Assembly (NCBI GenBank): GCA_002839185.1
Contig: PGXO01000003.1
Coordinates: 62,001 to 126,000, forward strand
Source: Synergistetes bacterium HGW-Synergistetes-1
GTDB lineage: Bacteria > Synergistota > Synergistia > Synergistales > Synergistaceae
Length of the DNA stretch: 64,000 nt
Reading direction: 5' to 3'
Shown: positions 3,655 to 16,399 of the stretch, piece after piece
Numbering within the stretch: position 1 is the first letter of the stretch
Layout: every line of letters begins with the position of its first letter
Program-made: the position numbers and the translations under genes
Notes under the pieces: generated by a model
Databases searched by the model: none
Told to the model about the DNA's origin: nothing
The model's input: the letters and a program-made list of their open reading frames with translations, nothing else

Positions 3655-4611
3655 CTAAGTAGATTTTTCTTGTATATAGGACAAGTATGTTGCGTTAACA
3701 AAACTATTTAACGACTGAGGAGTCCTTGAACGTGGAGCCAAGTCTATTATCGCATTTTTAGGACATAAATCCCTACCTCTAGTAAGCTTTTTTTGTGTCC
3801 TAGGTATGATATTATTATAATTATCACAAAGTGATTTTATAAAATTAATAAAATACCACATAATAAATTTACCTCTTGTATGTTTATATGTTGTATTTTT
3901 CTTTGAAAAATCTTTATATATTTTTTTAAAGTTTAATTCATCATAATCATAAGGCCATTTTTCCTTTACATAATTTACAATAATTTTCCTTGAGGCCGTT
4001 TTAACTTCACATTTATTAATATTAACAAGATCCTTAAGATTTATTTTATCAAAAATTACATCTTTTTTATTTTTTTTAAAATATATATAAAAACTAGAGA
4101 TAATATTTATTAATAAAGAGAGATCTTTGAGTCCCTTACTAAAAAGATTGCTAATTACATCAAATTCATCATCTGTAAAACTTAAACCAAATAATTCAAG
4201 TAGTGCTCTTTTTAAGGTGTGTATAGTAACAATATCATTTTCAATAGAATAATTATCAGTGATATATAAGTTTATATAATCATCATCAATACAAGTCCCA
4301 CAAAAATCATTTAAATCTTTGTCAATAAAAAAAGCTGTCTGCTTACAGGAATAATTATTCCAATCAATTAATTTTAATAATCTTAAAACACGGTCTTTAT
4401 TACCATTAGGAAAACCTGATTCAATTAAAATTAATTCCCAATCATCATTATTTATAGTATGAAGTATATGATGGTTATAATAAGCATAATCATCTTTACC
4501 TTCAATAAATCCGAATAAACGTTTTTTAGTATTTAACTGCGCACGAAGAAATTCACTATATGGAACGATAACCTCTTCTAGGGCTGACCGGTGAATTTCA
4601 ATCATAGACAT
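3655..4611 (-). CDS. DUF4435 / TOPRIM-like defence effector (AriB-like)
   Basis: A 318-residue protein with the hallmarks of DUF4435, a TOPRIM-fold nuclease family. It has an EG-x-x-D motif (E37, FIEGKDDYAYY), a DxD motif (D97 and D99 in FFIDKD) and the family's conserved NYSIEND at 120-126. In the PARIS anti-phage system the DUF4435 protein AriB is the toxic effector, held by the ATPase AriA and released on detection of a phage trigger; studied AriB proteins cleave host tRNA. Here it starts 3 bases after the AAA/ABC ATPase gene, with GGAGG 11 bases upstream, in the same order as ariA-ariB. The region is visibly AT-rich compared with the housekeeping genes. Family membership is clear; the PARIS assignment is inference from the pairing. 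Confidence 0.75.
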   Translation of the reverse strand: MSMIEIHRSALEEVIVPYSEFLRAQLNTKKRLFGFIEGKDDYAYYNHHILHTINNDDWELILIESGFPNGNKDRVLRLLKLIDWNNYSCKQTAFFIDKDLNDFCGTCIDDDYINLYITDNYSIENDIVTIHTLKRALLELFGLSFTDDEFDVISNLFSKGLKDLSLLINIISSFYIYFKKNKKDVIFDKINLKDLVNINKCEVKTASRKIIVNYVKEKWPYDYDELNFKKIYKDFSKKNTTYKHTRGKFIMWYFINFIKSLCDNYNNIIPRTQKKLTRGRDLCPKNAIIDLAPRSRTPQSLNSFVNATYLSYIQEKST

Positions 4612-4614
4612 ATT

Positions 4615-6006
4615 TTACTTAGCCTCCTCAATATACTCACCTAAACTATGAGTGTATTGTAGAAGTTCATTGTCATATATAAAGGGGGAATGTGTAGCTG
4701 CGATTAATCCAACACATAATGAGCTATTTTTTATGTCATTTAAAAATCGTTTTTGCCAAGGAACAGAAAGAGAAAGTTCGGGTTCATCAATAATAACAAA
4801 ACTTTTTTTGTTTTCAGTTAAGAATAAATGGCTAAATAAAGATACTATTTGTTTTTCTCCCGAAGATAAATCACTCATATCTATTGAATCATTATTATAG
4901 TTATTTTCTTTTAAAATTTGAACTTTGAAGGTTGACATGTCATAAGTAATTTTTTTATCTGAAGAAGATAAATACTTATTACATATATTGCAAAAATTAT
5001 TGATATTCTTTTCTTTTTTTTCTAAATCACTTTGCAATGATAATAAGTTTTTAAAATAATATAACAAAATTTGATTATGTGTATCATCTTGGACATTGTC
5101 GGTGGTACCTATGGCTTGTATTAATTCTTCAACTTGTTTTTTAGAAAGCATTTCTTTATTATTTCTTGAAAGGCATAATTTAAACTTTTCTATGTCATTT
5201 TTTGAAATAGTTACATTAGCAGCATTACTAGAAATATATTTTTTATCAATAACATCTCCTAAATTCATATAAGCTAGGTTTTTAAAGCTGCTCTCTGAAA
5301 ATCTACTTAATTCAGAACATATTTTATCAATTTTATCTTTTACATCTTGCATTCCAAATTCAACTAATTCAATATAACTATTCATTTCATTATCATCATA
5401 TTCTCCATATAAATATTTTTTATCATTTATTTCCTTATTTAATGCATATTTTCCCCTTACTACATGCGGTAGATCTTCTTCTATTCTACGATAAGTAGGC
5501 AGATAAATTACTCTAGCTTTTAATGCAGCTGAAATCTGCAATGCTATTTTTCGTCCATTTTCAAATAAATCAACTGAATCTGTTTCTGAAATATAGTGAA
5601 ATTTCTGAAACACTCTTTCTGCAGGGTACCCTGTTTTTTCGCATGAATCAATAATGTCTTGCTTTGTGATAAATAAGTTATTTTTTCTTAATTCTAAATT
5701 ACGCCTTACTGGGGCAGGCATAAATCTAAATATGTCTGAATCAATTTTATATTTTGGGTGAAGGTCGTCGTATGTTAATTCGTGAATCTTATTGTTAATA
5801 GTAACAATAATTTTTTTAAATTTATGAACAGGCAACTGAAAATAGCCACCAGATAAAACAGCAAATAAATATTTCAATATAGTTGTCTTGCCTAATCCAT
5901 TCTCTCCAACAAAAATAATAATATTATCTTTTATATCAATGTCTATATTTCTAAATCCATATAATCCAATAATTTGAAATCTGTTTAACTCATTTATTTT
6001 AGCCAT
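4615..6006 (-). CDS. ABC/AAA15-type ATPase, AriA-like sensor of a PARIS-type system
   Basis: A 463-residue SMC/RecF-type ATPase. Walker A is GENGLGKTT at 34-42, the ABC signature LSSGEKQ at 380-386, Walker B FVIIDEPELSL at 403-413 and the switch region ATHSPF at 437-442. The part between contains a long charged helical stretch. The frame extends to 6087, but I place the start at 6006 (MAKINELNRF) because GGGGG lies 10 bases upstream and the family fold begins there. Its immediate partner is the DUF4435 gene 3 bases downstream, the defining arrangement of PARIS. OLD-type and other ATPase-TOPRIM pairs are the alternative, but there the TOPRIM is usually fused. Confidence 0.75.
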   Translation of the reverse strand: MAKINELNRFQIIGLYGFRNIDIDIKDNIIIFVGENGLGKTTILKYLFAVLSGGYFQLPVHKFKKIIVTINNKIHELTYDDLHPKYKIDSDIFRFMPAPVRRNLELRKNNLFITKQDIIDSCEKTGYPAERVFQKFHYISETDSVDLFENGRKIALQISAALKARVIYLPTYRRIEEDLPHVVRGKYALNKEINDKKYLYGEYDDNEMNSYIELVEFGMQDVKDKIDKICSELSRFSESSFKNLAYMNLGDVIDKKYISSNAANVTISKNDIEKFKLCLSRNNKEMLSKKQVEELIQAIGTTDNVQDDTHNQILLYYFKNLLSLQSDLEKKEKNINNFCNICNKYLSSSDKKITYDMSTFKVQILKENNYNNDSIDMSDLSSGEKQIVSLFSHLFLTENKKSFVIIDEPELSLSVPWQKRFLNDIKNSSLCVGLIAATHSPFIYDNELLQYTHSLGEYIEEAK

Positions 6007-6122
6007 AACAATCATTCCCCCTAATATATATTTAATATATAATTTTAATATAAAAACATAGATAATTTGATTTGTCATAAACGACAATTAAGCGAAACAG
6101 CAATATGTTTTTTTCTTTATTT

Positions 6123-7187
6123 CTATCCACGATCAGCAAGGTACTTATTTGCCACTTGGATTATCTGATCTGCATATTTATATATATCGCTTGGCGATTC
6201 AAGCGGCTGTTTTGCTTCCTTTTTGTTCGCATCAAATAGACCAATTGTTGCCGTTGTCTTCCCGAAATAGAATCTGCATATCGGCAGTCGGTTATTGTCA
6301 TCAAAAAGGATGCCGCAGTAGCTTTGGGTGTCACGCAGTGAGATGCGCTCCAGCGGAATTACTTTACAGAGTATTGCACGGACTATGTTATAAGCATCAA
6401 GCTCTTCCTGGGTTGTGATAATTTTCTCTTCAGCTGACTCTACCGGCTCAGTTTCAGCAGGAACAGACGCTTTTTCTTCCTGTAGAGCGGAAGCCAGGCG
6501 GTCACTGACTCTTTCGCTGATAAACTGGGAAAGAGCTTTCTTCGTGATAACTTTAAACTTTTCTGTCATAGCAGCCGTCATACGTCCGTCATAAACCTTT
6601 CGTGTTAGCAGTCTCACAAAATCCTCGTCAGGCTCGTTAAGTGCGTCAAAAAGATATTTCTTCATTTCGTTTGTGTATTTAAGTTCTTCTGCTGCCGGAA
6701 TGATCGTGTCGATGCTAAAAGAGCCCTTGCAATACTTTTTTAATTCTCGAAGAGTGGCTTCGTTGATTTCATTTATATTAAATTTAAAGAATGGTTTTTT
6801 ATCAAGGATCTTGGGTTCATCGATATCTGAGTAAAATTCGTAGTCTAGCCCGTTCGTCAGGACCCCAATTCTTGCAGGCACCACCATGAAATATCGGGCC
6901 AATTGCCCGAGATTGTCAGGTATTAATTTGGCTGATGACCACTTACATTCGATCAGCATAATCGGTTTGTTGTCCGACATTATTGCAAAGTCAATTTTTT
7001 CACCCTTGCGGTCGACTATGTCAGCAGTAAACTCAGGGGTTACTTCTGCGGGATTAAAGATATCGTAACCAAGGGCTTGAATAAAAGGAAGAATCAATGA
7101 AGTCTTAGTTGCTTCCTCAGTTTGGATACTGTTTCCAGATGCCTTAAACCTTTGGGCAATGACCTTAATAGAATCGACAAGTTCCAT
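6123..7187 (-). CDS. Restriction-endonuclease-like protein (type I R-subunit N-terminal domain, COG4748-like)
   Basis: A 354-residue protein with a PD-(D/E)XK nuclease core near the N-terminus: KIDFAI with D66, then LIECKW with E80 and K82, and Q95 after it. This is the arrangement of the HsdR N-terminal domain and of COG4748 proteins. A linker around residues 245-265 is rich in Glu and Ala, and a C-terminal domain of unknown role follows. The start at 7187 is preferred because GGGAGG lies 9 bases upstream. No helicase domain and no methylase gene are nearby, so it is not a complete type I system. It sits just upstream of the ATPase-DUF4435 pair and may be part of the same defence block or an independent passenger. 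Confidence 0.6.
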   Translation of the reverse strand: MELVDSIKVIAQRFKASGNSIQTEEATKTSLILPFIQALGYDIFNPAEVTPEFTADIVDRKGEKIDFAIMSDNKPIMLIECKWSSAKLIPDNLGQLARYFMVVPARIGVLTNGLDYEFYSDIDEPKILDKKPFFKFNINEINEATLRELKKYCKGSFSIDTIIPAAEELKYTNEMKKYLFDALNEPDEDFVRLLTRKVYDGRMTAAMTEKFKVITKKALSQFISERVSDRLASALQEEKASVPAETEPVESAEEKIITTQEELDAYNIVRAILCKVIPLERISLRDTQSYCGILFDDNNRLPICRFYFGKTTATIGLFDANKKEAKQPLESPSDIYKYADQIIQVANKYLADRG

Positions 7188-7756
7188 ATAAAACATCCTC
7201 CCTAAGACATAATAGATTTAAGATAACCCTGATTAGCGTGAGCAAATGGTTTTGTCTCATTTGTCTGTTTGTTTATATGCGATATGAGCTAGCCAAGATC
7301 TGCCCTGTTTCGGGAAAAAGTGGGGTAGATAAATTTAGTTTTAAGGGACTTTTGTCAGATCAACGGCCTATCTATTAAACTCCTGCATTCAGCAGGTAAT
7401 TGTCACAAATGGCACCTTGTTTTCGGAAGCAATATCAGTATCCTGAATCAGTTATTAGCAGCGAAGTTCTTGTTTTTTCTCTGGGTGCAAAAGCAATTCG
7501 GTAACACAATGAATCAATTCTACCAAATAACTTAATTAATGCAATCTTTTATAAATATTTGTAAGGGCATCTGTCTGTTTAGTACCACTTAGCGGAAGAA
7601 AAATGACAAACGACTTTGGATATGATCAAGAAATATAAAGAAATTTCGGCGTTTAAAAGTAAACGTCAAATATACCGGATTACTGGACGTTATCCAGGTC
7701 CGGGATATTTACGCTTACTGTTACTCGAAGAAAGACATTTAGCATCCGGACAAAGG
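7188..7756. other. Gene-free spacer between the defence block and the tRNA operon
   Basis: No gene, integrase or tRNA-end duplication is apparent. Short open frames (for example one crossing into the tRNA-Gly gene) have no coding signal. This spacer should carry the promoter of the minus-strand defence genes, but I could not identify a convincing one. Confidence 0.5.
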
Positions 7757-7795: not shown

Positions 7796-7870
7796 TGGAG
7801 CGGAAGACGGGATTCGGACCCGCGACCCCAACCTTGGCAAGGTTGTGCTCTACCACTGAGCTACTTCCGC
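7796..7870 (-). tRNA. tRNA-Gly (GCC anticodon)
   Basis: A cloverleaf can be drawn with acceptor GCGGAAG/CTTCCGC, a TTCGAAT-like T loop (GTCCGAATC) and anticodon loop CTTGCCA. The CCA end is encoded (7796-7798). It is the last of four tRNA genes in this minus-strand operon. Confidence 0.95.
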
Positions 7871-7890
7871 AATATAGTTTTATAAGTTAC

Positions 7891-7966
<76 letters not shown>

Positions 7967-7986
7967 ATCTCAGTGGCGTTAAAAAG

Positions 7987-8063
<77 letters not shown>

Positions 8064-8079
8064 ACTTTTTACAGTTGTA

Positions 8080-8154
8080 TGGTGGGCGGAATAGGTTTCG
8101 AACCTACGACCCCCTGCGTGTAAGGCAGGTGCTCTCCCGCTGAGCTATCCGCCC
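8080..8154 (-). tRNA. tRNA-Val (TAC anticodon)
   Basis: Acceptor GGGCGGA/TCCGCCC, discriminator A, CCA encoded, anticodon loop CTTACAC. First gene of the tRNA operon, about 40 bases downstream of a consensus promoter. Confidence 0.95.
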
Positions 8155-8252: not shown

Positions 8253-9545
8253 TTACCTTCTGATGAAGAGAGCCTTTCCCCAGTCCGCCCCCACTCCGAC
8301 CCAAATAACCGGAACTCCGGCCTCTTCTTCGATAAATTTTATAAACTCTTGAGCCTGTATCGGAAGTGTTTTGAAATCGTTGCAGAAAGAGAGCTCTTCT
8401 CTCCATCCTTCAAAAGTCTTGTAGACAGGACGTGCTTTCCAGGAATCACTGTTCGTTATGTCGAGGATCTTTTTTTCTTCCCCATCGACATCGTATGCAG
8501 TACAGATCTTTAGCTCATCCACCCCTGTGAGGATATCGAGTTTCGTCAGCGCGAGTGCGTGCACGCCGTTTTCTTTCAACGCGTATCTGAGGGCAGGCAG
8601 ATCAAACCATCCGACTCTCCTTGGCTCCATGGTCACCCCCGCAAACTCTTTTCCCCTGTTTCTGATAAAAGCAGTCACGGCGCTTGTTTCTTCCGTAACG
8701 AAGGGACCGTCGTCGTTTCTTGTCGAGTAAGCCTTGGCAACACCGATTATGCGCATCGGAGAATTCCACCTGAGACCTGTCCCCGTAAGTGCCGCCGCAG
8801 ATAACGAAGATATTGGCATCACATATGGGTAGAGACCGCGTTCAACGTCGTTAAGAGCTCCGTCGCAGGCTTCGAAGAGGATCCCTTGATTTTTTGATAC
8901 AGCCTTCTCAACTATCTCTTCAGGGTTTCCTATGTACGGTATGAGCCTTTCTCCAAGACGAAGACATTTTGCATAGAGCTCGTCGGGATCCAGTGCCTTT
9001 TCACCGTAAATTTTTATGAAATATTCGTTCTTTACATTCAAGTTCTCTTTTATTTTGTCGTGGAGTATGTCCGGATAGAGAAGATCGGTTATCCTTATCC
9101 CCATTCTTCTGTATTTGTCTGAACAGCTGTGCCCAAATCCCTGTTCGACCATTGTCCTGTTCCTGTTGTGACCAAGTTTGCGGCCATCAAGCACATCAAG
9201 TTTTTTATGATAGTCGAGTATAAGGTGGCATGACTTGCTTATGGTAAGCCGGGCTTTGAGGACCCCTGCCTCCTTTAGCATCGCTATTTCGTCTGATACC
9301 TTTTCAAGGTCCAGCGTCACGCCGCCGCAGATAAGGCAGTTTTTGCCGTCATGGTGGATCCCGCTGGGCAGGTGGCTTACTCTGTATTTTTCACCGCAGG
9401 CAAATATTGTCCGCCCGCCGTTTGAACACCCCTGAAAACGGACAACGACATCAGATCTGTTTGCAATGAAGTCCACAATTCTTCCCTTGCCTTCATTGCC
9501 CCACTGAGTTCCAATGACCATGTTCGTCTCTGAGCCTGTCATCAT
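8253..9545 (-). CDS. Divergent adenylosuccinate synthetase homologue with substituted catalytic residues
   Basis: At 430 residues this has the full length and clear colinearity of PurA, the GTP-dependent enzyme joining IMP and aspartate. GTP-site motifs remain: GNEGKG at 16-21 and TKLDILTG for the guanine. Compared with E. coli PurA from memory, the catalytic base Asp13 is Asn17, the general acid His41 is Arg45, the GTTGRG IMP loop (T129) is rewritten, Gln224 is Asp and Arg303 is Glu, while Arg143 and Arg305 appear kept. I checked the AAT (Asn17) and CGG (Arg45) codons in the DNA. It should therefore not do ordinary PurA chemistry; it may be a neofunctionalised ligase or a pseudoenzyme. Its ATG overlaps the stop of the deacetylase gene (ATGA), ending a cell-envelope and division operon rather than a purine one. 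Confidence 0.85.
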   Translation of the reverse strand: MMTGSETNMVIGTQWGNEGKGRIVDFIANRSDVVVRFQGCSNGGRTIFACGEKYRVSHLPSGIHHDGKNCLICGGVTLDLEKVSDEIAMLKEAGVLKARLTISKSCHLILDYHKKLDVLDGRKLGHNRNRTMVEQGFGHSCSDKYRRMGIRITDLLYPDILHDKIKENLNVKNEYFIKIYGEKALDPDELYAKCLRLGERLIPYIGNPEEIVEKAVSKNQGILFEACDGALNDVERGLYPYVMPISSLSAAALTGTGLRWNSPMRIIGVAKAYSTRNDDGPFVTEETSAVTAFIRNRGKEFAGVTMEPRRVGWFDLPALRYALKENGVHALALTKLDILTGVDELKICTAYDVDGEEKKILDITNSDSWKARPVYKTFEGWREELSFCNDFKTLPIQAQEFIKFIEEEAGVPVIWVGVGADWGKALFIRR

Positions 9546-10561
9546 TGTTCTTCTCCATCCTCATTTTCTTTCTGTGTTTCAGCCATCTCTGGAATCGTCA
9601 CCAGCCGGACCGGAAGTTTCGTGTATTCCTTATTCAGTGTTTCGAGAAAGAGAAGGGTAGCCGGTCTGAAATGGCAGATAACTATCATATCCCCTCTCTG
9701 CAGTGTCGTTTTTACGACCTGGTCAAACCTGGCTTTTATTGAATCCTTGTCCGGTGTCCCATCGAGGAATCCTCTGTTTCTTAAGGTCATTATACCCGCA
9801 GCTTTGGCTGCCTCATAAGCAACGCTTTTGCCGGAAGTCCTGCTGTCCAGAAACAACAGTCTCCTCTCTTTAAGCACATCAATTATCGGGACCATTATGT
9901 CCCATTTTGAAGTCGCAAGGGAACCTCTGTGGTTGTTTATGCCTATCGGTGAAGGAAGCGAGTTCAGAGCCTTGATCGTTACTTCTCGTATCCTGTTCCG
10001 GTCCATTCCCTCGCCCACCAGGTATTCTTTGGAGTCCTTGTCTATCTCAGCCTGCATTGGCAGATGCAGCAGATAGGGTATTCCGGCGGCATCTGCAATG
10101 GCTGCTGTTTCGCCGGCGTACCTAGTGTAGGGAAGTATCGCCCATGTCAGAGGCAGGTTGAATGATGCGACTTTTTTTGCCATATCGGCGGCATTTCCCC
10201 CATCATCGACCACTATTGCCAGAATGGGTCTTTTGTCCGGGGTCTTTTGGGGGAGAACTTCTTCCTCGACTCGCACATCTTTGCTCAGCACAGGAGGAAA
10301 CTCTTTCTCTTCCTCCTGCGGTTTCGTGCCTGATATCACTTTTGGATCGTCTTTATTCCCTCTAAAGAGAGATACCGCTTTGGATCTGAACTGATCAGCA
10401 GTGGCCGATATGTTCTCTACCCTTCTCACCACAGAAGGAGAAAACTTTTCAGGATAGATCCTGCAAAAGGCGAAGAGCAACACTAAAGATAGGACTGCCA
10501 GCAAAGCCAGTTTGAGAAGACCATTTATAAGGCTCTCTTTGTTCTTGTAGTGGCGTCCCAT
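9542..10561 (-). CDS. YibQ-like divergent polysaccharide deacetylase
   Basis: A 339-residue protein with an N-terminal membrane anchor (about 13-34), a low-complexity charged linker and a divergent polysaccharide deacetylase domain of the YibQ/DUF610 family (about 110-330, beginning ILAIVVDDGGN). In this family the NodB fold is present; visible are the HLPMQ, INNHRGS and LDSRTS segments. It is expected to act in the periplasm on cell-wall or envelope glycan. YibQ genes commonly follow envC and ctp genes, as here. The start at 10561 is chosen from AAAGGTGG five bases upstream. It overlaps the following purA-like gene by four bases. Confidence 0.8.
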   Translation of the reverse strand: MGRHYKNKESLINGLLKLALLAVLSLVLLFAFCRIYPEKFSPSVVRRVENISATADQFRSKAVSLFRGNKDDPKVISGTKPQEEEKEFPPVLSKDVRVEEEVLPQKTPDKRPILAIVVDDGGNAADMAKKVASFNLPLTWAILPYTRYAGETAAIADAAGIPYLLHLPMQAEIDKDSKEYLVGEGMDRNRIREVTIKALNSLPSPIGINNHRGSLATSKWDIMVPIIDVLKERRLLFLDSRTSGKSVAYEAAKAAGIMTLRNRGFLDGTPDKDSIKARFDQVVKTTLQRGDMIVICHFRPATLLFLETLNKEYTKLPVRLVTIPEMAETQKENEDGEEQ

Positions 10562-10575
10562 TCGATCCACCTTTT

Positions 10576-11784
10576 CTATTTAGCTTGTTTTTTCTTCTTT
10601 GCAACTTCCTTGCGAAGTATTTCAAGCCCTTTACGGAGCTGTTTGTCGTTGATCTTTTCTTTTGTTATCTCACCTTCGACCTTTACGTTGGGTTCAAGGC
10701 CTTTGTGGTCGATAACGAACCCGGAAGGTGTCGTATAGCGTGCGATAGTTATATAAATGCCTGAGTTGTCCGGCAGGTTGAATAGTGACTGCACGGATCC
10801 CTTGCCGAATGTCTTTTTTCCGACAATAGTTGCCCTCTTGTGGTCTTTTAAGGCTCCTGCAAGTATCTCTGCTGCGCTTGCGCTTCCCTCGTTTACCAAA
10901 GCTACGACCGGCAGCTTGGTAGCCCTTCCTTCAACAGCGTACAGCGTGTCATTGGCCTTTTCGAAGCGGCCCTTCATTCCTACCACTACTCCTCCGCTTA
11001 TGAACTGTGACGTTACATCAACGCAGGAATTAAGAAGGCCTCCGGGATTGTTTCTGAGATCCAGCAGGATCCCTGTTGCTTTTTTAGCTTTGGCAGATTT
11101 TATTATCGCCTCGAGCTCAGCATCAGTCTTCAGGTTGAACTGATTTATTTTTATATATGCTGTCCTTCCGCCAAGCATTTCCAGCCTTACTGTCTTTATC
11201 TTAATTATTTCCCTTACTATGACAAACTCCAGTAATTTTTCTTCATTTTTACGCCTGACACCGATCTTTACCGACTTTCCGGCGGGACCCCTCAAAAGTT
11301 TGACGACCTCGTCGCTGGTCATCCCAATTACATTCTTTTCGTCGACCTTCACGATCTCATCAAGCGGCTTCAGACCTACCCTGTCGGCAGGAGTGTTCTC
11401 TATAGGTGCTATAACTATAGTACGTCCGTCACGGGAGGTGATGTATATCCCCAGACCTCCATACTCGCCCTCCATCTCAAGGTTCTCTTCCTCCAGCTCC
11501 TTGGGTTCCACAAAACGCGTAAATGGGTCACCTACAGAGCTGACCAGACCTTTCATGGCCCCGTAATACATTTTTGTGTCATCGATGGTGCCTTTTTTGT
11601 CTCCGTCGACCTGGTACGTCTCAAGAACCATCTTAGTTTGTTTGATTATCGCAAGCTGCTGGGACGAAAAAGGAAGCCCCTTTGGCCAGTCGGCGCTGAT
11701 CGCCTGGGGGGTCATATATATACCTGCAGCCACCATCAGACCTAAAACAATGCCAAGAGCTACATCTCTGTATTTATTAAACAT
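10576..11784 (-). CDS. ctpA: C-terminal processing protease, S41 family
   Basis: A 402-residue periplasmic serine protease. It has an N-terminal membrane segment (about 7-24), a PDZ domain (about 100-180, with GGLGIYI and the LRGPAGKSV segment) and an S41 catalytic core. The core shows the NEGSASAAEIL nucleophile motif near residue 300 and the catalytic Lys in TFGKGSVQS near 328. Enzymes of this type trim periplasmic or envelope proteins and often regulate murein hydrolases. It is in the classic envC-ctpA-yibQ order. The frame opens at a GTG at 11793; I prefer the ATG at 11784 because AAAGG lies closer to the usual spacing. Confidence 0.9.
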   Translation of the reverse strand: MFNKYRDVALGIVLGLMVAAGIYMTPQAISADWPKGLPFSSQQLAIIKQTKMVLETYQVDGDKKGTIDDTKMYYGAMKGLVSSVGDPFTRFVEPKELEEENLEMEGEYGGLGIYITSRDGRTIVIAPIENTPADRVGLKPLDEIVKVDEKNVIGMTSDEVVKLLRGPAGKSVKIGVRRKNEEKLLEFVIVREIIKIKTVRLEMLGGRTAYIKINQFNLKTDAELEAIIKSAKAKKATGILLDLRNNPGGLLNSCVDVTSQFISGGVVVGMKGRFEKANDTLYAVEGRATKLPVVALVNEGSASAAEILAGALKDHKRATIVGKKTFGKGSVQSLFNLPDNSGIYITIARYTTPSGFVIDHKGLEPNVKVEGEITKEKINDKQLRKGLEILRKEVAKKKKQAK

Positions 11785-11824
11785 GAAGACCACTAACCTT
11801 TCTTTGTGCTTGTAAATTTATTTG

Positions 11825-13039
11825 TTACTGCAGGTATCTCATTGGATTGACAGCATCTCCGTTTACCCTGGTTTCGAAATGGAGATGGTTTCCGGTAGCG
11901 ACCCCGGTGGCTCCTACCCTGCCTATAAGACTCCCCCTGTTTACCTTTGCCCCTTCTGTACATTCTATCTTTGAGAGATGAGCGTATACCGTGGTGAGGT
12001 TTCCCCCGTGGTCAAGGATGACCACGTGTCCGTAGCCGCTAAGCCATCCGGTAAAGAGAACTTCGCCTGTATCAGCGGCTTTGACCGGAGTGCCGTTAGG
12101 GGCGCTGATATCAAGCCCCGTGTGGGTAATTTTTGTTTTGAATATCGGGTGTATCCTGGTTCCGTAGGTGCTTGTTATTGTACCCTGTACCGGCCAGGCC
12201 AGCCTTCCGCCTCTATAGTAAACTGTCTGTGGTTTCCCGGGGTGCTTCTGTGCAGCCAGTTTTCTTTTTTCTGCCAGCAATCTTTTGACTGTTGCCTGGA
12301 GCTCTTTTGACGCCCTGAGAAGCTCATTCTGCTGAGCCATGTAGAGATCCTTGTCCTTGCGTACTCTGGCAAGTATCGCGTTTCGCTCATTTGCCGCACC
12401 TTTTAGCTCATTTGTCTGCGTTTTCAGTTCTTTCCCGTGTGATTCAAGGCTTGACTTTTGAGTCTTAAGCTGTTCCTGTGTTTCGCTCAGTTTCTGTTTC
12501 TGGAATTTTAGTTCGTTTATGAGCTGCTGGTCCTGCTCAGCTATTTTGCCGAGCAGATAGGAGTTAGCCAGAGCATCCTCCGCTCCCTGCGATGAGAGTA
12601 AAAGGTTAAAGTCACTTACTCCGCCGTACTTATAGATAGAGACGAGACGATGCTTTAAGAGCTCTTCTACCTCGGCTATCCTTTTGTTTTTCTCAACTAT
12701 TTCGTTTGAAAGATTCACAATGTTCTTCTGGACCTTTCTTACTTTTAGACTTACTACATTTACCTTCTGCTGGGTTATCGTTATTTTTTGGCTCAATACC
12801 TCTATTTGCTGCGTAACTGTCTTTTCCTTTTTGGTGGTCTCATTGAGTTTTTTCTTTGTAGTTGATATCTGATTTTGTATCCTCTTATACTCTTCTTCCT
12901 GTTTTTTGATCTGCCTGTCAAGGTCATCCTCTTTTTTTTCGGCAGCATAAATCAGTCCTCCTGAAAAAAAGAGAAGGAGTGATGCGGTGAGAAAAAAGAA
13001 AATTAAAAAACCTGTGATCCTTTTGCAGTACAAATTCAT
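11825..13039 (-). CDS. EnvC-like murein hydrolase, coiled coil plus M23 (LytM) domain
   Basis: A 404-residue exported protein: signal peptide about 1-31, a long Lys/Glu/Gln-rich coiled coil from about 33 to 255, and a C-terminal M23 domain (about 279-404). Unlike E. coli EnvC, whose LytM site is degenerate, the zinc and catalytic residues all appear present: H306 and D310 in HTGLD, H354 in YAHLS, and H385 and H387 in HLHFE. It may therefore cut peptidoglycan itself rather than only activating amidases. It lies directly downstream of ftsE-ftsX, whose complex is known to bind and control EnvC-type proteins by their coiled coil. Confidence 0.9.
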   Translation of the reverse strand: MNLYCKRITGFLIFFFLTASLLLFFSGGLIYAAEKKEDDLDRQIKKQEEEYKRIQNQISTTKKKLNETTKKEKTVTQQIEVLSQKITITQQKVNVVSLKVRKVQKNIVNLSNEIVEKNKRIAEVEELLKHRLVSIYKYGGVSDFNLLLSSQGAEDALANSYLLGKIAEQDQQLINELKFQKQKLSETQEQLKTQKSSLESHGKELKTQTNELKGAANERNAILARVRKDKDLYMAQQNELLRASKELQATVKRLLAEKRKLAAQKHPGKPQTVYYRGGRLAWPVQGTITSTYGTRIHPIFKTKITHTGLDISAPNGTPVKAADTGEVLFTGWLSGYGHVVILDHGGNLTTVYAHLSKIECTEGAKVNRGSLIGRVGATGVATGNHLHFETRVNGDAVNPMRYLQ

Positions 13040-13060: not shown

Positions 13061-13945
13061 TTAAAGCGGTTTCGATGCTTTCCTTATAAATTTTTCCACT
13101 GCCATCAGACTTGAAATAAGACTCACTGTTGCACCGCAGCATATAAGCATAAATGCAAGTTTACCTGTAAGTTTTGTCGATTCTATGAACGGTATGAAAG
13201 GAAGCATGTCTTTTAATCTGGTCACCGCGGCATAGTATGTGCCTCCAAGAAGGAGAGATGCAAAAAATGCCCCTGTAAGACCAAGTATAAAGCCCTGAAT
13301 GACAAATGGAAGAGTCACATAGGTCGACGTAGCTCCTACCATCATCATTACGCCTATCTCTTCTTCCCTCGAATAGACAGATATCCTTATTGTGTTGAAA
13401 AGGACTACCCCGCTTGCCGCTATAGCGACCAGCAGCATAACGATCGAAAACTTTTCAACAAAGCCTGATACTTTCGTTAGTTTTTCAGCAACTCGTCCAG
13501 CGTAAACGATATCCTCTATCTCAGGAACAGCGACAAGCAGACGCGCCGTTTCGGCTACATCTGAAGCTTTTCTCACCTTTATCTCAATGCTTTCGGGCAG
13601 CGGGTTCTCTCCCAGCAGCATAACAGCTTTTGCCTGCTCTCCGATCCTGGAGCGGAGACGTTCAAGCGCCATATCTTTTGTTATCAGTTTCGTCTCTTTG
13701 ACATAAGGAAGCGCTTCAATAGCTTTTTCCGCTGCCTTAACATCAGCTTTCGGTTTGAGGTAAGCCTGTATCGTCATCTGGTTTTCAAGCGAACTGACGA
13801 TATTTCTTACGTTAAGCACAAAGAGGGTGCTGGCTCCTATTATGAAAAAAACAGACATGGCAGTAAATATTGTCAGCAGGCTCATGCCCCAATGGCGAAC
13901 GATAAGCCTCCATCCGTCCCTGCACGCATATCTAACAGCTGCCAT
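13061..13945 (-). CDS. ftsX: Cell division protein FtsX
   Basis: A 294-residue membrane protein with one N-terminal membrane segment (about 21-42), a periplasmic loop (about 45-160) and three C-terminal membrane segments, the standard FtsX topology. With FtsE it forms an ABC-type complex that passes cytoplasmic signals to periplasmic murein hydrolases, here presumably the adjacent EnvC-like protein. The start at 13945 is supported by GGGAGGT about 10 bases upstream; the frame extends to 13954. It overlaps the end of ftsE. Confidence 0.93.
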   Translation of the reverse strand: MAAVRYACRDGWRLIVRHWGMSLLTIFTAMSVFFIIGASTLFVLNVRNIVSSLENQMTIQAYLKPKADVKAAEKAIEALPYVKETKLITKDMALERLRSRIGEQAKAVMLLGENPLPESIEIKVRKASDVAETARLLVAVPEIEDIVYAGRVAEKLTKVSGFVEKFSIVMLLVAIAASGVVLFNTIRISVYSREEEIGVMMMVGATSTYVTLPFVIQGFILGLTGAFFASLLLGGTYYAAVTRLKDMLPFIPFIESTKLTGKLAFMLICCGATVSLISSLMAVEKFIRKASKPL

Positions 13946-14627
13946 GAAGTTCATACCTCCCCTGCTCTTCGTCCCTTACGATGCGTCCTCTGTGTATTTC
14001 TATGACCCGGTGCCGGTATGTGTCGACAAGGTACTGGTTATGCGTCGCCATCATCACTGTCGTTCCTGCCGCGTTTATTCCCAGTATCAGCTGCATTATC
14101 TCATCTGCTGTATGAGTATCAAGGTTACCGGTAGGTTCGTCTGCGATCAAAAGCGAAGGGCTGTTTACTATAGCTCTTGCAATTGCCAGTCGCTGCTGTT
14201 CACCACCGGAAAGCTGCGGCGGGTATAAATTTCTCCTGCGCCATATCCCTACAAGCTTAAGGACCTCAGAGACCCTCTCAGTAATCTCCCGCGGGGTAAG
14301 TCCCATTACCTCAAGAACAAAGGCAACATTCTCGAATGCTGTCAGGTTCGGAAGAAGAAGAAAACTTTGGAAGACGACCCCTATGTCCCTCCTGAAAAGG
14401 GCAAGGTCGAATCTGTTGATCTTCCTTAAAAGGTTCCCTCCTACGCTTATTTGCCCCCTGGTCGGGATGACCTCACGTGTAATACAGCGCATAAGTGTCG
14501 TTTTCCCTGATCCGGTCTCCCCTACAAGGTAAACGAACTCTCCTTTTTCAACCTGCATATATATATCTTCCAATGCTATTATGTCGGGCTGGAATATCTT
14601 TGTTACCCCGGAAAATTTTATTTCCAT
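13932..14627 (-). CDS. ftsE: Cell division ATP-binding protein FtsE
   Basis: A 231-residue ABC ATPase. Walker A is GETGSGKTT at 36-44, the signature LSGGEQQRL starts at 139, Walker B is LLIADEP at 159-165 and the H-loop is MMATHN. It has the short single-domain layout of FtsE. It overlaps ftsX by 14 bases and follows the transketolase-like gene by about 10 bases, so it belongs to the long envelope operon. Confidence 0.93.
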   Translation of the reverse strand: MEIKFSGVTKIFQPDIIALEDIYMQVEKGEFVYLVGETGSGKTTLMRCITREVIPTRGQISVGGNLLRKINRFDLALFRRDIGVVFQSFLLLPNLTAFENVAFVLEVMGLTPREITERVSEVLKLVGIWRRRNLYPPQLSGGEQQRLAIARAIVNSPSLLIADEPTGNLDTHTADEIMQLILGINAAGTTVMMATHNQYLVDTYRHRVIEIHRGRIVRDEEQGRYELHGSC

Positions 14628-14637
14628 ATCAGAAAAA

Positions 14638-15582
14638 CTACCTCCTGCGAAGCGCCCATGCCTGCGCTGCTGCGTTAACTATCTCTTTCCATGTCAGTCC
14701 AAAATACTCCCGGAGCTCTTCAGGGGTCCCGCTGTGGACGAATTGGTCGTCTATCGCGACAAACCTCACCGGCACCGGATAGGTTCTGCAAAGGCACTCT
14801 GCAGTTGCGCTGCACAGACCTCCTATATAGCTGTGCTCTTCTGCTACAACACAGCAGCCGGTCCTTCTTACAGAGGCGAGGAGTGCCTGCTCAGGGAAAG
14901 GCTTCAGGCTGTAAAAGTCGAGTATCTCGATATCGATTCCCTGCTGGTCCAGTATATCAGCAGCCTTAAGAGCCTGATGGCCCATAATGCCGCAGGTGCA
15001 TACTGTGACTGAGGTACCCTCGCGCAAAAGCCTTGCTCCTCCGAAACTGAAATCTCCATCAGGGTCATCGTTCAGCTGCGAAAGCGGAGTTTGTCCAAGC
15101 CTTATATAAACAGGGCCTTCAGACTTGCGCGCGGCATCTGCTATGCCCCTGACTGAATTTCTGTCAGAAGGAACAGCTACACTCATATTGGGCATTGCTC
15201 TCATGAGAGTCAGATCCTCTGTCATTATTCTTGAGGCTCCCTCCTCACCGCAGGAAAGCCCTCCGTCAGGCACTGCTATCCTAACAGGCAGCGACGGAAG
15301 GGCAAGCGACTCTCTTATCTGTGAATAACTCCTGCTCAGAATTTTTGAAGATATCCCTGCTATCCATGGTTTTTTACCGTTCAATGCAAGCCCTGCGGCA
15401 TTGAGTATCATGTTTGGATCTGAGGCAGATGACACGAATATTTTTTCCTCCGGCAGGTCCTTTAAGGGACCAAGATCCATGTCCATTTCCTGGACAACTA
15501 GAATGAAATCTTCGTCCTCCGCGAACGAAACAAGATATTCACAAAAATCATTCCACGTACATGTTTTCGTCCTGTCATCCAT
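14638..15582 (-). CDS. Transketolase-like protein, C-terminal half, divergent
   Basis: A 314-residue protein colinear with the pyrimidine-binding and C-terminal domains of transketolase/DXS. LMRAMPNMSV with PSDRNSV, and GPVYIRLGQTP, are typical. The usual GIAEQ segment with its catalytic Glu reads SASDPNM, and the SHQ region reads ASRIM, so key catalytic positions are altered. The start at 15582 is chosen because GGAGGG lies upstream and the ATG overlaps the stop of the N-terminal-half gene by eight bases, implying coupled synthesis of the two halves. Split transketolases are common in anaerobes, but they normally keep these residues. The neighbours are envelope genes, not pentose phosphate genes. 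Confidence 0.75.
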   Translation of the reverse strand: MDDRTKTCTWNDFCEYLVSFAEDEDFILVVQEMDMDLGPLKDLPEEKIFVSSASDPNMILNAAGLALNGKKPWIAGISSKILSRSYSQIRESLALPSLPVRIAVPDGGLSCGEEGASRIMTEDLTLMRAMPNMSVAVPSDRNSVRGIADAARKSEGPVYIRLGQTPLSQLNDDPDGDFSFGGARLLREGTSVTVCTCGIMGHQALKAADILDQQGIDIEILDFYSLKPFPEQALLASVRRTGCCVVAEEHSYIGGLCSATAECLCRTYPVPVRFVAIDDQFVHSGTPEELREYFGLTWKEIVNAAAQAWALRRR

Positions 15583-16399
15583 TTGATTTACCCTCCAGCT
15601 CTTCCAAAGCCCTGTCCATTGCTTCAATGCTCAGTCCCTTTTTCGTTCTGGTATGATCGCCTTCTGCAAAGGAGAGTCCTCTTCCGTTCCTTATTGAGGT
15701 AAAGATGGCTGTTGGCTTCGATCCGTCAGGGTCGAGCCTGTTAAAGATCTCCTCCATCGAGGCGAAATCGCTTCCATCCATTTCAAGTATTCTCCATCCG
15801 TATCCGGAAAGACGATCACGGCACTTCACCTGCAGGTCATTTGAATCAGATCCGTCTCTGTGTTTATACGCTGCGATCACGATAATGTTTTTTATATTTT
15901 TATTCGCGCATCTTTCTGCCTCAAGAAAAAAATCATCGCAACTGCACTCGCTCTCTTCCATGAGGCAAAAGACCCTTGCGTTGAGGCCTTCCATGCTTAG
16001 AGACTCGGCAAGAGGTGCAGCTACGGCAAGCTCAGTTCCTGATGTCACACATGGTGCATCTATACCAGGTGTCCTTCTGAAATCCGGCAGGGCCTGCAGC
16101 ATCGCTCCCAGCCTTCTATAGTGCCAAAGTTCTTCTCTCCCGTAGTATCCGCGTTTTGCAAGTATTGAATAGAGGGCAGGGACACCATATTCCGTTCCGA
16201 GGATAAACCTGTCTCTGTCATTTCTCTTCGGACTCTGTGCAAGCAACAGCATCTCTTCCCAGTAGAGATATACAAGGATATCAGATATCAGAAGAGGGAA
16301 TTCAAGGGGACCTGATCGTGCGACACCAACCATCCGCACGATATCTTTCCTTACTTCAGAGGCTATTTGTTCCAGTTCATTTATTCTGGTTATCTCCAT
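15575..16399 (-). CDS. Transketolase-like protein, N-terminal half, lacking thiamine diphosphate motif
   Basis: A 274-residue protein colinear with the N-terminal, thiamine-diphosphate-binding half of transketolase. Family features include IRMVGVARSG-like opening segments, RDRFILG, PALYSILAKRGYY and EELWHYRRLGAMLQ. The cofactor signature GDGE...N is replaced by EESE...KHR, the SKGHA loop reads GTEYG and the GHPD motif reads ALPD, so the conserved histidines and Mg ligands are missing. I checked the EESE codons in the DNA. Cofactor binding and normal catalysis are unlikely. GGAGAA lies upstream of the ATG at 16399, which overlaps the csaB end by 23 bases. Confidence 0.7.
   Translation of the reverse strand: MEITRINELEQIASEVRKDIVRMVGVARSGPLEFPLLISDILVYLYWEEMLLLAQSPKRNDRDRFILGTEYGVPALYSILAKRGYYGREELWHYRRLGAMLQALPDFRRTPGIDAPCVTSGTELAVAAPLAESLSMEGLNARVFCLMEESECSCDDFFLEAERCANKNIKNIIVIAAYKHRDGSDSNDLQVKCRDRLSGYGWRILEMDGSDFASMEEIFNRLDPDGSKPTAIFTSIRNGRGLSFAEGDHTRTKKGLSIEAMDRALEELEGKSNG

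Follow-up and report, generated by a model that had tools for sequence, protein, structure and literature searches.

The window analyzed here, that is, a 64,000-nt stretch of contig PGXO01000003.1 from Synergistetes bacterium HGW-Synergistetes-1, encodes on its reverse strand (positions 8253–9545) a 430-aa degenerate paralogue of adenylosuccinate synthetase (PurA), a near-universal enzyme. We use the name PAL for this open reading frame and its orthologues. Taken as a whole, the profile match, structural model, residue table, gene order and selection data make it likely that PAL is a PurA-derived pseudoenzyme. We infer that it has lost the ability to bind IMP and aspartate and to perform phosphoryl transfer, whereas it would still bind GTP or GDP; its role is probably regulatory. 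By position PAL has succeeded purA, standing at the ancestral site of that gene, and it forms a vertically inherited clade under selection, a clean natural case of conversion of an enzyme into a pseudoenzyme with the ancestral gene position preserved. An open-literature search combining adenylosuccinate synthetase and pseudoenzyme returned no paper, and this lineage is, as far as we searched, undescribed there.

Fold and active site of PAL

PAL starts with an ATG codon that overlaps by four bases the stop codon of the preceding yibQ-like gene. As originally predicted, its product is homologous to PurA over the full length: a Pfam search aligned it to profile positions 1–411 of 416 in PF00709 (420.8 bits, E = 6.7e-126), and its identity is about 33–35% to PurA proteins of known structure from bacteria and 42% to the canonical copy encoded in the same genome. 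PAL passes the general NCBIfam PurA model (414.8 bits; cut-off 402) and fails both the TIGR00184 purA model (350.7; cut-off 395.55) and the PurZ model NF038379 (74.7; cut-off 300). The best structural matches of an AlphaFold2 model built from 40 sequences (pLDDT 86.9, pTM 0.87) were bacterial PurA proteins (TM 0.96 to 4m9d), those to PurZ structures being weaker (TM 0.52–0.66). Model confidence was lowest at the first ten residues, the IMP loop and segment 231–260, the latter two being where PAL departs from PurA. Retention of the PurA fold is supported, rather than independently proven, by this model, given that its alignment includes viral PurA rows, consists mostly of canonical PurA and biases the outcome to the PurA fold; an alignment of only four near-identical sequences gave a pLDDT of 30.8.

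In PurA, which works as a dimer, Asp13 serves as general base and also coordinates Mg, and Arg143 is contributed in trans to the partner's active site. The residue roles and the lists of IMP, aspartate and GTP sites used throughout are those that we take to be established in the PurA literature rather than derived from coordinates; R143L, K16Q and R303L figure as active-site mutants in the titles of solved E. coli PurA structures. Codon checks and the residue table place Asn17 (AAT, 9495–9497, reverse strand, as for all residues of this gene) at the position of catalytic Asp13 and Arg45 (CGG, 9411–9413) at that of catalytic His41, just as had been read from the sequence. Equally correct was the prediction that the Thr-Thr-Gly-Arg IMP loop (128–131) is replaced, here by Met132-Val-Glu-Gln135 (9141–9152), and that Asp228 (8862–8864) and Glu307 (8625–8627) stand for the IMP contact Gln224 and the aspartate contact Arg303, respectively. 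That list was nonetheless incomplete, as five further residues with little or no variation in canonical PurA are lost too (Leu228 to Asn, Thr239 to Met, Ser240 to Pro, Val273 to Asn and Thr300 to Val). All IMP contacts (Thr128–Arg131, Gln224, Thr239 and Val273) are thereby replaced except Arg143, and the aspartate loop 298–305, with Arg303 and Arg305 in PurA, departs from the PurA pattern although Arg305 itself persists. The GTP motifs claimed to be kept are indeed present, namely Gly12, Glu14, Gly15, Lys16 and Gly17, along with the guanine-recognition elements Gly416 and TKLD (Thr334–Asp337, 8535–8546), the latter with Lys335 and Asp337.

In a broad sample of prokaryotes, conservation of the catalytic Asp of PurA is reported to be 99% (PMC12884076). 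A parallel had been drawn with PurZ, the phage 2-aminoadenylosuccinate synthetase that uses dGMP (PMC8342488, PMC12884076), likewise a paralogue within the PurA superfamily whose catalytic Asp is changed. That parallel is weak: the PurZ profile score is low, Ser rather than Asn occupies the position in 100% of phage PurZ sequences (PMC12884076), and PurZ is shorter than PAL. A PurZ relation was rejected on profile scores.

The ancestral purA site and the origin of PAL

PAL closes a run of reverse-strand genes that comprises the N-terminal (15575–16399) and C-terminal (14638–15627) transketolase halves, ftsE (13932–14627), ftsX (13061–13954), an envC-like gene for a coiled coil plus peptidase M23 (11825–13039; PF01551, 115 bits), ctpA for an S41 carboxy-terminal processing protease (10576–11793), and the yibQ-like gene for a divergent polysaccharide deacetylase (9542–10570; PF04748, 190 bits). 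Apart from yibQ, these genes were assigned with the help of synteny (by tblastn for ctpA); the names of ftsE, ftsX and ctpA follow the original prediction and the translations, and those of the transketolase halves the translations. Among 183 Synergistales genomes, 13 carry PAL, and they belong to six genera of one family, Synergistaceae. Seven, including that of the window, are of the window's genus (the other six copies being 79–97% identical), and six (G016, G020, G021, G026, G027 and G035) represent five other genera (51–64% identity), the next-best matches in the order being canonical PurA at no more than 45%. At the PAL loci the gene lies directly after yibQ, its start at or within four bases of the yibQ stop.

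Gene order was surveyed by tblastn of the operon genes against loci of Synergistaceae and eight further families of the order; statements on the canonical purA position do not extend to family f7. Among those other families, it is canonical purA that ends the tktN-tktC-ftsE-ftsX-envC-ctpA-yibQ run, as it also does in Synergistaceae genera g3, g6, g11, g12, g16 and g18, so that PAL shares its position after yibQ with the canonical gene of most other members of the order examined. Canonical purA often overlaps yibQ just as PAL does; in G038 and G048 it follows ctpA, with no yibQ match by tblastn. In g8 and g13 canonical purA sits beside glmS and the division-gene run ends after yibQ, where a search for PAL remnants found none; PAL is thus dispensable in these two genera, since it is missing there without trace. 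In g9 the apparent lack of PAL may reflect a contig end, since L095 stops 186 bases past yibQ.

Since canonical purA held this site first, the place of PAL among division genes says nothing about its function, and the linkage to the ftsEX-envC run predates PAL, given that the canonical gene shares the position elsewhere in the order. The deduction of an envelope or division role from the neighborhood was therefore rejected, which illustrates how gene context can mislead: this one belonged to ordinary purA before.

The expectation of a second, canonical purA elsewhere in the genome was borne out. The window's genome (2.17 Mb, 99.93% complete) has it downstream of glmS (G000:C2:79401-80654; 606.8 bits), with all active-site residues intact. 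Only one purB scores over the cut-off in this genome, which leaves no obvious second succinyl pathway. Canonical purA is found in every PAL genome except G020 (66% complete), and it adjoins glmS in those PAL genomes whose surroundings were read; we infer that this relocated copy now makes AMP in them. A gap of ~700–800 bases separates glmS from relocated purA in genera with and without PAL alike; that of the window's genome contains a small open reading frame (L066 8285-8596, reverse strand) whose translation we take to be GIY-YIG-like. Four small, near-complete Synergistaceae genomes (G008, G010, G011 and G030; 1.5–1.6 Mb) gave no PurA match of any kind in a homology search and are presumably those of purine scavengers.

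Phylogenetically, PAL forms one clade (100/100) on a very long stem of 1.7 changes per site, and the relocated canonical copies another (100/99), nested in Synergistaceae. The point at which PAL joins the tree is unstable, its long stem drifting to other long branches; AU tests did not reject a clade of PAL with the glmS-linked copies (p = 0.264) or with all Synergistaceae rows (p = 0.31). Synteny, together with this non-rejecting tree rather than a tree result proper, suggests that one duplication within Synergistaceae gave rise to both PAL and the relocated purA. No PAL relative was retrieved from viral contigs, and a search for phage homologues yielded none above 38.3% identity. A horizontal or phage origin was rejected in favor of the vertical synteny.

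Residue losses and selection across orthologues

Residue counts over the 12 distinct PAL proteins confirmed that the active-site replacements are conserved as losses, and this recurrence excludes chance. Asp13, Thr128, Gln224, Val273 and Arg303 are lost in all 12. The Asp13 position holds Asn in nine and otherwise His, Gln or Ser, and that of Arg303 holds Glu, Ala, Thr or Gln. The question of whether orthologues have the standard catalytic pair thus received a split answer: the Asp is standard in none, whereas His41 is kept in 4 of 12, the remaining eight having Arg. Arg305 is preserved in 10 of 12 proteins, Arg143 in 11 (Ala in G027), Lys331/Asp333 of TKLD in 11 and Gly416 in all. GTP binding may not be general in PAL, however, because TKLD is lost in G020 and, except in G016 and the window's genus, residues on the phosphate side have eroded too (Gly17 to Asn, Lys or Ser; Thr42 to Gln, Glu, Arg or Pro). 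Other residues are specific to the clade and fixed or nearly so, namely Asn232 and Pro244 (11/12 each), Trp422-Gly423 and Asp111; the C-terminal Trp422-Gly423 and Asp111 may mark an interaction surface.

PAL is clearly constrained and under purifying selection. Its dN/dS between congeners is 0.04–0.14, versus 0.04–0.08 for its canonical counterparts in those genomes, and all 13 copies are full-length open frames. Between the window's genus and G016, dN reaches 0.26–0.30 for PAL versus 0.13–0.14 for canonical purA, about twice the amino-acid rate. We then compared site entropies in the ten genomes that carry both genes, where 14 IMP/catalytic and seven aspartate-loop sites are all invariant in canonical PurA. 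Relative to the canonical-invariant background of PAL (mean entropy 0.73), IMP/catalytic sites (1.08; permutation P = 0.035) and aspartate sites (1.50; P = 0.002) evolve faster, whereas GTP sites evolve more slowly at borderline significance (0.42; P = 0.057). A retention test of contacts against other sites over all 12 proteins was weaker (P = 0.074). Catalytic loss, a PurA fold, purifying selection and an active paralogue, the marks of a pseudoenzyme, are thus found together in PAL.

Candidate functions and alternatives

As a tentative proposal, PAL would tune AMP synthesis to the guanine-nucleotide level by pairing with canonical PurA. The duplicated canonical purA beside glmS would have taken over AMP synthesis, while PAL has stayed at the ancestral purA site and keeps its parent fold together with most of the pocket for guanine nucleotide. 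In putative mixed dimers, PAL would lend or withhold the dimer arm carrying Arg143, and the guanine-nucleotide level would thereby set AMP synthesis. Such a dead subunit could matter because PurA of E. coli has activity in the dimeric state only, with a Kd of 10 μM in the absence of ligand (PMC6136348). Precedents come from the AdoMetDC prozyme and deoxyhypusine synthase of trypanosomatids, in which dead paralogues activate their partners (PMC5201418, PMC3663545). Like PAL, they are conserved inactive paralogues beside the active one of an oligomeric enzyme; their interaction was shown biochemically, whereas that of PAL with PurA is conjectured here. In a broader form that we hold with similar reserve, PAL may sense guanine nucleotide and either control PurA through heterodimers or, via the FtsEX-EnvC-YibQ operon, couple purine status to septal wall hydrolysis. 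If true, either sensing role would make PAL, as far as our search extends, the first regulatory dead PurA.

The fixed clade-specific residues could also be explained by a new function of another kind. It is rather unlikely, in our assessment, that PAL is a neofunctionalized enzyme that activates a different substrate with GTP in a rebuilt active site. Purifying selection would fit it, as would the near-fixed Asn232, Pro244 and Asp228 (the latter in 10/12) near the old site; however, the replacements at Asp13, Thr129, Arg303 and the 298–301 loop vary between orthologues, the sites for IMP and aspartate rank with the faster-evolving ones of PAL, the general base is replaced, and no second purB exceeds the cut-off. 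Because the old substrate sites are fast and mostly without a fixed new residue set, we favor a pseudoenzyme over a new ligase; accordingly, between the two options first put forward, a GTP-dependent ligase or kinase and a GTP-binding pseudoenzyme, it is the second that fits best. Quite improbable is a pseudoenzyme devoted to the envelope, which would bind guanine nucleotide and adjust septal peptidoglycan hydrolysis. The tight attachment of PAL to the end of the run speaks for it, but canonical purA shares that position in the rest of the order, and the run persists in g8 and g13, where PAL is absent. It has a precedent in Glp, a repurposed MoeA paralogue of Actinobacteria whose active site is lost and which is linked to division (PMC11733289). 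Glp resembles PAL in being a metabolic-enzyme paralogue with an apparently lost enzymatic role and two or more gene copies per genome; it is itself linked to division, whereas PAL owes its place among division genes to inheritance. By this analogy a division role is possible but, once the ancestral position is recognized, unsupported.

We give very little credence to the view that, despite its unusual residues, PAL continues to act as adenylosuccinate synthetase or acts on dGMP in the manner of PurZ. Almost all contacts to IMP and to aspartate have changed together, a canonical purA is present in the same genome, and the TIGR00184 and PurZ scores as well as the distant phage homologues outweigh the pass of the general PurA model and the change of Asp13 shared with PurZ. 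Just as implausible is a decaying redundant copy heading to loss: the long stem, the absence from g8 and g13 and the doubled amino-acid rate are what decay would produce, yet the open frames of all copies and their low dN/dS led us to reject a pseudogene.

About 100 bases after PAL lie four tRNA genes (Val, Asp, Phe and Gly; 7796–8154, reverse strand), a cluster conserved in three genera (the window's genus, G016 and G020). Gene content beyond it differs between genomes, for instance IS66-like genes in L033 and defense genes in the window, a pattern that resembles an insertion hotspot. In the window, a gene for a DUF4435 protein (AriB model, E = 2.5e-19) adjoins one for an AAA ATPase (AriA model, E = 8e-32) at 3655–6087 on the reverse strand, and the two look like a PARIS anti-phage pair; an HSDR_N-type protein is encoded nearby (6123–7196), just past the tRNA cluster. 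Separately, a 557-aa protein that joins a P-loop kinase-like domain (AAA_18) to a PurA/PurZ-like domain is encoded in another genome (L065 6440-8113, reverse strand; G025:C76); Ser takes the place of the catalytic Asp in the latter domain, and the island on which the gene lies also carries an integrase and genes of relaxase-like and Fic-like type. Similar fusions (40–43%), mostly labeled adenylosuccinate synthetase, occur on Rhizobium, Agrobacterium, Sinorhizobium and Methylobacterium replicons, and the L065 gene is possibly an undescribed nucleotide-based defense gene.
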